Below the pieces are notes generated by a model. The model searched no databases, was not told where the DNA came from, and saw only the letters and a program-made list of their open reading frames with translations. 20,129 bases of DNA from a virus: IMG/VR virus record IMGVR_UViG_3300042905_005097, positions 1 through 20,129 of that record, one strand, 5' to 3'. Shown piece by piece: positions 7,160 through 19,592 of the stretch. A program made the translations under genes and the position numbers. The number at the start of each line of letters is the position of its first letter. Within the stretch, counting starts at the first letter, position 1.

Positions 7160-7450
7160 TTAGCCACCGCCACGAAGTTCCGAAGCAGCGTCTAATTTTC
7201 GTCTATGTCTGGGGGGCAGAGTGGTCTTCATCTTGTTCATAAGCTCGTTCCAAGCGCCCCCAGTTGCCTTATTAGGGCTTAGAGTAGTGTCCATGGCCAT
7301 TCCCACCCCTTCGCTCATATAATCGCGTATAACGGCTTTCTTGCCACACTGAGGGCAAGGAGATTTGATGGGCTTATCGTTATCTTTCATTGACAAATTT
7401 TCATCAAATTTGTGTTTGCAATTTTCACATAAGAACGAATAAGTTGGCAT
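7160..7450 (-). CDS. FmdB-family zinc ribbon protein
   Basis: A 96-residue protein with an N-terminal zinc ribbon: MPTYSFLCENCKHKFD with Cys8 and Cys11, and SPCPQCGK with Cys32 and Cys35. MPTYxFxCxxC...F is the signature of the FmdB/CxxC_CxxC_SSSS putative regulatory family. Such proteins are frequent in tailed phages and their role is not well established. The rest is basic (PPRHRRKLDAASELRGGG). The ATG overlaps the stop of the upstream HNH gene by one base (TAATG), with GAGGA eight bases upstream, so the genes are coupled. Confidence 0.8.
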   Translation of the reverse strand: MPTYSFLCENCKHKFDENLSMKDNDKPIKSPCPQCGKKAVIRDYMSEGVGMAMDTTLSPNKATGGAWNELMNKMKTTLPPRHRRKLDAASELRGGG

Positions 7451-7941
7451 TATTTTTTCCTCAAAAAGAATTTTAAGATATCATCAAAAATTAAATTGTA
7501 ACATGGTTCTTTTGGTTTACTCAAAAGTTCCATTTTTGCTTCTTTGGGTGTTCGGTTGCCTTTGTAAAGATTACAATCTCTGCAGGCAGCAACCATGTTA
7601 ACCCAACTATTACTTCCACCTCTATGTCTGGGAACTATATGGTCAACTGTAGCGTTATGTTCCATCAATTCCACATTACAATATTGACAGATATATTTAT
7701 CGCGCCTTAGAATGTTTTTCTTACTCGGATATGTCTTCTTAAGTGGAACTTTGACATAATATTTCAAAATCATGACTTTGGGAATTTTTACTTCCCTGTC
7801 TATGCACTTTATGTTTATATGATCCGAAGTTTCTTCGTAATAAACCTTATTCTTTGTCATTAGATCCAATGCTCTTCGCATTGTAATGACATTCAAGGGA
7901 CTTTGATCAAAATTCAGAAGAAGTACTGAATTCTCAAGCAT
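7450..7941 (-). CDS. HNH endonuclease
   Basis: A 163-residue protein starting MLENSVLLLNFDQSPLNVIT, the typical beginning of this HNH family. It has a zinc-binding CQYC (Cys85 and Cys88), the HNH core VDHIVPRHRGGSNSW with His101, Asn115 in VNM, and AACRDCNLYKGNRTPKEA with Cys120, Cys123 and Asn124. These proteins cut double-stranded DNA. Free-standing copies in phages are often homing endonucleases, and a related family helps terminase cut packaging sites. The frame is open further upstream to 8055, but that segment lies over the 62-aa gene and only the part from 7941 shows family similarity. The start overlaps the upstream stop by eight bases. Confidence 0.87.
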   Translation of the reverse strand: MLENSVLLLNFDQSPLNVITMRRALDLMTKNKVYYEETSDHINIKCIDREVKIPKVMILKYYVKVPLKKTYPSKKNILRRDKYICQYCNVELMEHNATVDHIVPRHRGGSNSWVNMVAACRDCNLYKGNRTPKEAKMELLSKPKEPCYNLIFDDILKFFLRKK

Positions 7942-8122
7942 TTTCTTTGATAAACGTGGAGAATGACATGATTCGGGATTCGTCTTGCTGTTCCCGTTTT
8001 TTCTTCGAAATTTCGATTGCCTGCAACTGTTTAATTGCTTGTTCTTTGGACTCATGCGTACCTAAAATTTTTTCACCTGTAGAGTCTGTGACGATAAATT
8101 TTCCGTCAGATTGCTTTATCAT
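7934..8122 (-). CDS. 62-aa phage protein with a GK-x-V-x-S-x-G-x-x-LG domain
   Basis: A small protein whose first half (DGKFIVTDSTGEKILGTHESKEQAIKQLQAIE) resembles a short domain common in phage proteins. In it a beta hairpin carrying a Gly-Lys...Leu-Gly pattern is followed by a helix with EEAxxRLxxIE. The second half is strongly charged (SKKKREQQDESR) and ends MSFSTFIKENA. I do not know its function. It is the first gene of the minus-strand block, and a TATAAATA box lies seven bases before its ATG. Confidence 0.65.
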   Translation of the reverse strand: MIKQSDGKFIVTDSTGEKILGTHESKEQAIKQLQAIEISKKKREQQDESRIMSFSTFIKENA

Positions 8123-19044: not shown

Positions 19045-19073
19045 ATTATACAACAAACAACGATCTCTGTCAA
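19045..19073 (-). promoter_or_regulatory. Perfect sigma-70 consensus promoter for the 18855-19019 operon
   Basis: On the minus strand TTGACA (19068-19073) and TATAAT (19045-19050) are separated by exactly 17 bases. Transcription should start near 19038, giving a ~19-base leader with a GTGAG ribosome binding site before the ATG at 19019. It is directed at the four-gene block ending at 17926. Confidence 0.9.
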
Positions 19074-19214
19074 TTATTTATGAGACTTAGACTTCTTGAT
19101 CTTTGCTTTGAGATCTTGATTTTCCAAAGCCAATTTTCCAGCAGCTTTGGTCAATTCCATTATCTGAGTCCGCAAATCACTTATAATTTTGTCTTTATCT
19201 TCTTTTTTAGCCAT
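19074..19214 (-). CDS. 46-aa coiled-coil-like protein
   Basis: Reads MAKKEDKDKIISDLRTQIME, then KAAGKLALENQDLKAKIKK. Leu and Ile occur at roughly heptad spacing, consistent with a short coiled coil, with basic ends. The start codon follows directly after the U tract of the RNA gene's terminator and there is no Shine-Dalgarno sequence, so translation would need read-through and an unusual initiation. The frame is open to 19307, but that extension lies inside the RNA gene. The stop codon directly abuts the -35 box of the next promoter. Whether it is a real gene is uncertain. Confidence 0.45.
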   Translation of the reverse strand: MAKKEDKDKIISDLRTQIMELTKAAGKLALENQDLKAKIKKSKSHK

Positions 19215-19252
19215 AAAAAAAATTACTGGTTTTTCAGTCGCGGGAAAACCAG
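19215..19252 (-). terminator. Rho-independent terminator of the tmRNA-like gene
   Basis: On the minus strand CTGGTTTT (19245-19252) pairs perfectly with AAAACCAG (19226-19233). After TAA-TT the sequence continues in a run of U (19215-19222). The 5' arm also lies in the loop of another stem (GTGGG 19258-19262 with CCCGC 19240-19244), so the element could fold as an H-type pseudoknot like tmRNA PK2. Confidence 0.85.
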
Positions 19253-19266
19253 CAAACCCCACTGCT

Positions 19267-19305
19267 TTAAGCAGCCATCCGCATTGGTGCGGCTTTTGTT
19301 GTTGC
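19267..19305 (-). other. tmRNA tag reading frame, ATTKAAPMRMAA
   Basis: The resume codon GCA at 19303-19305 is followed by eleven codons and TAA. The C-terminal Met-Ala-Ala resembles the Leu-Ala-Ala end of bacterial tags recognised by ClpXP. The TAA lies in the loop of CTGCT-TAA-AGCAG-type pairing (19262-19274), as in Escherichia coli tmRNA. The resume codon lies about 14 bases after PK1, a spacing similar to that in E. coli. Confidence 0.75.
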
Positions 19306-19458
19306 AACTGTTTATTTACGACACTTGTTACCCGTGTCGGGTATCTCCTTCTTCAATACTCTGCACTGATCGATGCCTGTCGGACCCGTAAAGTGGATCC
19401 GGGGAGATTCGAACTCCCGTGTCATATGCATTTCTATCCAATATCAACAATACCGAAA

Positions 19459-19554
19459 GCGTAGTGGAGGACTTGCACCTCTATTGCTTATCAGATCTCT
19501 GTTCTAGATCAAAGACCCTATCAGCCGGACGATTATTTCGCTGCTGGACTACGC
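19459..19554 (-). other. Leader of the tmRNA transcript: four-way, cloverleaf-like structure
   Basis: A perfect seven-base stem GCGTAGT/ACTACGC encloses three hairpins: CAGC/GCTG, GATCT/AGATC with loop AGAACAG, and GAGG/CCTC with loop TGCAAGT. Its place in the transcript corresponds to the PK3-PK4 region of one-piece tmRNAs. It mimics a tRNA cloverleaf in outline but lacks U33, normal spacing and a CCA end. Confidence 0.5.
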
Positions 19555-19563
19555 ATATTATAT

Positions 19564-19592
19564 ATTATATAATGTTTTTTTCAAAATGTCAA
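19564..19592 (-). promoter_or_regulatory. Perfect sigma-70 consensus promoter for the tmRNA-like gene
   Basis: On the minus strand TTGACA (19587-19592) and TATAAT (19564-19569) are separated by exactly 17 bases. The predicted start, near 19556-19558, coincides with the 5' edge of the structured RNA. The -35 box contains the TGA stop codon of the upstream gene. Confidence 0.9.

Follow-up and report, generated by a model that had tools for sequence, protein, structure and literature searches.

The DNA analysed here (the window) is a 20,129-nucleotide stretch of a viral record in IMG/VR. Its genes include those for a DnaB-type helicase, a primase, ThyX and ribonucleotide reductase. The helicase shares 55–57% identity with the helicases of T4-like phages (recorded as Kyanoviridae) that infect Synechococcus, OM43 and SAR11, so this gene gives no indication of the host. 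A cyanophage assignment was considered and set aside: 15 related contigs lack the psbA/psbD family, and the Synechococcus phages DSL-LC02, DSL-LC03 and S-CREM1 are without a permuted tmRNA. The minus strand at 7450–8055 encodes an HNH endonuclease (Pfam HNH_5) that may be a homing enzyme.

Organization and detection of the permuted tmRNA

The minus strand from 19592 to 19215 appears to form a single phage transcription unit, in which a consensus early-type promoter is followed by a tRNA-like RNA, a permuted tmRNA and a terminator. The parts are as follows.

19564–19592, minus: promoter TTGACA-17-TATAAT (12/12 match)
19459–19554, minus: separate tRNA-like cloverleaf RNA, outside the tmRNA (fold, covariation, copies elsewhere)
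19394–19454, minus: tmRNA acceptor piece, CCA not encoded
19450–19454, minus: P2 3' strand, GGTAT
19402–19418, minus: T arm
19395–19401, minus: acceptor 3' strand, CGGATCC
19394, minus: A73
19388–19393, minus: spacer (intervening segment) CTTTAC, 6 nt, presumably removed in maturation
19262–19387, minus: tmRNA coding piece, conserved core
19381–19387, minus: acceptor 5' strand, GGGTCCG, with G1 at 19387
19369–19380, minus: TCGA region
19340–19344, minus: P2 5' strand, ATACC
19319–19339, minus: PK1 hairpin, CGACAC-GGGTAACAA-GTGTCG
19305, minus: resume codon GCA
19267–19305, minus: tag frame GCA ACA ACA AAA GCC GCA CCA ATG CGG ATG GCT GCT TAA, encoding ATTKAAPMRMAA*
19279–19292, minus: hairpin CCGCA-CCAA-TGCGG inside the tag frame
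19262–19274, minus: P5 hairpin CTGCTTAAAGCAG, enclosing the stop codon
19215–19253, minus: terminator hairpin and T8

All of the minus-strand features listed in a preliminary description of this DNA (T arm, acceptor strands, TCGA, P2, PK1, resume codon, tag, promoter and terminator) are therefore present. That description had treated 19215–19556 as one tmRNA; this part of it was revised, since the tmRNA occupies about 19220–19454 but 19459–19554 is a separate cloverleaf RNA that is absent beside many homologous tmRNAs. Along the minus strand, CGGATCC and A73 come first, then CTTTAC and then GGGTCCG. The acceptor 3' strand is thus upstream of the 5' strand, which confirms the circular permutation. 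The acceptor stem has seven pairs, among them the alanine identity pair G3-U70, which is accompanied by A73. Directly before the resume codon GCA stands ACAGTT, which places an A at −4; this corresponds to A86 of E. coli tmRNA, which sets the resume frame (PMC2481249). Downstream of the tag one conserved pseudoknot-like element, and no other, was identified, in which GTGGGG is matched with the terminator loop CCCGC. Both are kept in the relatives displayed and the stem shows compensatory changes, so that the arrangement looks like a conserved pseudoknot.

Two further elements lie beyond the terminator. A 46-codon Lys-rich ORF occupies 19074–19214 on the minus strand, its ATG touching the T-run of the terminator, and a second perfect TTGACA-17-TATAAT promoter-like site is found at 19045–19073 on the same strand, upstream of minus-strand ORFs below 19045.

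ARAGORN returned a single gene from the window, a permuted tmRNA (tmRNA*) with the tag ATTKAAPMRMAA*, and made no tmRNA call in 200 dinucleotide-preserving shuffles. Weak tRNAs reported by ARAGORN at a 50% threshold in the AT-rich tmRNA stretch were taken as noise. At curated thresholds the sole Rfam match was RF04321 (tmRNA_permuted), full length at 19454–19267 on the minus strand, with 51.1 bits and an E value of 1.4e-7; the cut-off for this family is 47 bits, which leaves the window a margin of only 4 bits. Both searches had been proposed beforehand as checks, and the outcome named as fatal, zero covariance-model hits, did not occur. Among the older Rfam lineage models, which had been proposed as well, the betaproteobacterial one came closest: beta_tmRNA was second at a permissive threshold, but its 31.9 bits fell below its own cut-off of 84.

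Variation among related phage sequences

Relatives were collected from IMG/VR with DNA patterns and one protein search. After parsing, 67 distinct tmRNAs from uncultured phages were available, the window's included, a sample that is biased because each search pattern demands a conserved stretch. Whole-record Rfam searches placed RF04321 above its cut-off in 15/17 and 9/14 related records, many of which had been selected for carrying a matching motif. G3-U70 and A73 are each found in 67/67 tmRNAs and a complete 7-bp acceptor stem in 66/67. Compensatory changes are seen in the T stem and at acceptor pairs 4 to 7, the fourth pair occurring as all four Watson-Crick types (GC 42, TA 14, CG 9, AT 2). 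The P2 strands covary as GGTAT/ATACC, GGCAT/ATGTC and GACAT/ATGTC, the PK1 stem as CGACAC/GTGTCG versus CGTTTC/GAAACG, and every tag has 12 codons and ends in Ala-Ala-stop. Acceptor stem, PK1 and tag frame are thus kept among covarying homologues, where their loss had been named beforehand as the contrary result. With two programs, covariation in 67 sequences and tag-frame conservation in agreement, the earlier proposal of a permuted tmRNA of the two-piece type in a T4-like phage is borne out, and we regard the identification of the locus as very likely correct.

Searches of other collections did not yield relatives. A blastn search of 50,697 phage records (INPHARED) matched the RNA region only in stretches the size of a T loop or in tRNAs, and gave no tmRNA relative. 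A scan of GTDB genome contigs with one single exact motif from the resume region gave six matches, none with an Ala-Ala-stop tag frame. As far as the collections searched show, the family would belong to a phage lineage.

The position of the tag frame defines two classes. The window belongs to the canonical (0-frame) class. In 29/67 tmRNAs the tag frame begins at CAA, 1 nt past the expected resume codon GCA; members of this +1 class have one extra nucleotide after the resume site and the same upstream sequence as the canonical class, and their expected GCA frame gives a five-residue peptide or no early stop. Pairs with identical upstream sequence and different tag frames include L158 and L160, and L125 and L126. 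Slippage of the tRNA on A-runs was considered as an explanation for the +1 class and rejected, as it does not fit members such as GCAAACCATG. Because the frame is off by 1 nt in so many members, the resume rules of the lineage are not fully understood; the two classes constitute a natural experiment on how the ribosome chooses a resume codon, a long-standing question.

In the window's clade, which has 14 sequences, the spacer measures 5–6 nt; three further sequences have 39 nt, 44 have 71–99 nt (type I) and 6 have 165–173 nt (type II). The spacers of 39–173 nt fall into at least three types. These hold differing conserved structured RNAs (type I in L086, L091, L120 and L146; type II in L125, L137 and L166; type III in L116). 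Type I spacers contain conserved stems with compensatory changes and the loops CTGCAA and TTGCAG; in L146 both are altered, to CTGTAA and TTACAG, and the two loops could kiss. The type II spacer resembles a free RNA upstream of the L131 tmRNA (around 1440–1550) that has a T arm and an anticodon-like loop. For types I and II, Rfam returned the tmRNA itself and sub-threshold hits, and nothing else. L092 and L095 share their tag with the window but have a spacer of type I, so the two features are not linked. With its near-absent spacer, the window offers a way to test what the minimal substrate for two-piece processing is.

Proposed operation of the unit and the upstream cloverleaf RNA

How the RNA is processed, charged and used for tagging, when it acts and what the phage gains from it are inferred as follows. 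Host RNase P would make two cuts, one at the tRNA-like RNA and the other at the coding piece's G1; trimming past A73 and the addition of CCA would also fall to enzymes of the host, and the acceptor stem and P2 would hold the two pieces together. Once charged by host AlaRS, the RNA would be carried by host SmpB and EF-Tu to ribosomes that have stalled on broken mRNA, where translation would resume at GCA, append Ala-ATTKAAPMRMAA and end in release. During infection, amid mRNA degradation and a failing host RNA supply, the phage would in this way have a ribosome rescue system and a tag of its own. A search for SmpB found no gene for it in the window or among 20 related contigs, any of which may be incomplete, so that the host's SmpB would have to serve. 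Expression timing may differ among relatives, as L101 has a T4-late-like element, TATAAATA, at about 1785–1800 on the minus strand, just upstream of the tmRNA and in place of the window's early-type promoter. Counting against the model are the narrow Rfam margin, the +1 tag frame of 29/67 relatives and the short spacer: with 6 nt between the pieces, the acceptor stem closes on a loop of 7 nt, on which the 3' processing enzymes may act poorly. Taken as a whole, a working phage tmRNA that relies on host SmpB, AlaRS and RNase P is nevertheless the reading we consider probable.

The phage RNA might instead bind SmpB and titrate host trans-translation rather than perform it. The tRNA-like domain alone strongly inhibits tmRNA, and mycobacteriophage DS6A has such a form (PMC4131195); that SmpB was not seen in these phages also fits. 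A decoy of this kind, however, would need neither a complete tag frame, stop and Ala-Ala end, which are kept in 67/67, nor the canonical resume determinants of the window, and we judge it improbable.

Another alternative concerns the extent of the RNA, and it depends on the cloverleaf. This element has a 7-bp stem (GCGTAGT/ACTACGC), a long "anticodon" stem with the loop ATCTAGAA, and a T-like arm (GAGG-TGCAAGT-CCTC). Its fold has a z of −2.5. It recurs in 22 distinct copies, covariation supports its stems with two-sided changes in 9/19 consensus pairs, and a model (R1) built from 16 versions gave 35 matches in 76 sources, the training sequences partly among them. If 19215–19556 were in its entirety one tmRNA, with the cloverleaf as an extra 5' domain, the 4 nt that separate the cloverleaf from the acceptor piece and the promoter common to both would be accounted for, as would the weak match of the standard tmRNA model across the cloverleaf of L098 (24.2 bits). 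Directly upstream of the 67 tmRNAs, however, the scan found 19 copies, typed A or B, and inspection added four more divergent ones (L119, L124, L149 and L167); by inspection, 44/67 tmRNAs have no cloverleaf in this position. Copies also lie beside tRNAs, at kilobase distances from the nearest tmRNA, or in contigs where no tmRNA match exceeds the cut-off. Other phages have the element in their tRNA clusters, one of them on a contig of 177 kb with a sole tmRNA match, which is below the Rfam cut-off. This distribution makes a single continuous tmRNA decidedly unlikely, and the tmRNA of the preferred model would have its 5' end at about 19454. Further examples of the cloverleaf are found in L088 (570–657) and L062 (11466–11546).

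The cloverleaf resembles a tRNA (RF00005) in having acceptor, D, anticodon and T arms in order and in its place in tRNA clusters, but differs in its T loop (TGCAAGT for TTCRANN), its over-long anticodon stem and its unconserved anticodon loop, which reads CTTGCAA (UGC) or TCTAGAA (CUA) or is lost. ARAGORN made no tRNA call for it at default settings, and Rfam found nothing in the window's copy, the best RF00005 score being 14.3 bits in L088 (cut-off 29); blastn in INPHARED gave zero matches. By tRNA models, anticodon loop and T arm alike, the element thus fails as a standard tRNA. An amber-suppressor tRNA, suggested by the loop TCTAGAA, was rejected in view of the remaining copies, which have UGC, a different loop or no loop at all. 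The cloverleaf RNA appears to be an undescribed family; as guesses at its role we offer a processing signal or a decoy against tRNA-cutting defences.

A non-functional or captured fragment of host ssrA, left at an integration site or recently transferred, has a precedent in the prophage ssrA fragments known at attachment sites (PMC9004378) but deserves very little credence here, given that the gene is complete, from its promoter to its terminator, that 67 phage sequences show compensatory changes, that the six GTDB motif hits all lack the Ala-Ala-stop frame, and that the gene context is T4-like with no integrase among the genes examined.

More tentatively, the permuted tmRNA could be a modular RNA unit. 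The spacer would be a slot for exchangeable structured RNAs (5–6, 39, 71–99 or 165–173 nt), some of them possibly active in processing; almost half of the lineage would follow a +1-tolerant resume rule; and the unit would travel with a new family of non-decoding tRNA-like RNAs, serving for example in processing or against tRNA-targeting defences. We put this forward as a possibility that is itself rather doubtful.

Comparison with known tmRNAs

The phage two-piece tmRNA is a known kind, published earlier for Melnitz and others. The tmRNAs of Bacillus phage G and mycobacteriophages Bxz1 and Wildcat have the standard gene order and are not permuted. These one-piece forms share with the window the location of ssrA on a phage (PMC4131195). 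Buchholz et al. (2022) described the two-piece tmRNA of methylophage Melnitz, and Pelagibacter phage Mosig has one too (PMC9004378). With ARAGORN, 18,146 phage genomes yielded 53 two-piece cases, almost all of aquatic origin; the roles proposed were maintenance of host machinery or degradation of host proteins (PMC9004378). The tmRNA database holds 79 bacteriophage sequences, and RF04321 is a merged alpha/beta/cyano model (PMC11915505). We found no description of the present lineage, its minimal spacer, missing CCA, tag or companion RNA, and with them the range of phage two-piece tmRNAs would reach past the published examples, taking in a lineage whose search here gave neither a related phage record nor a bacterial source.

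The window matches RF04321 over its full length and above the gathering score, but the alignment has gaps at about 20 of the model's spacer positions. Pelagibacter phage HTVC008M and Melnitz score 90.6 and 113.4 bits with the same model. Melnitz, Mosig and HTVC008M are like the window in carrying a permuted tmRNA in a T4-like phage, with the same order of parts and an Ala-Ala tag end. HTVC008M and Melnitz, however, encode CCA, their spacers measure about 49 and 142 nt and their tags are ANFNEYALAA and ANDNYVPVDYALAA, whereas the window has no CCA, a 6-nt spacer, the tag ATTKAAPMRMAA and a tRNA-like RNA in front.
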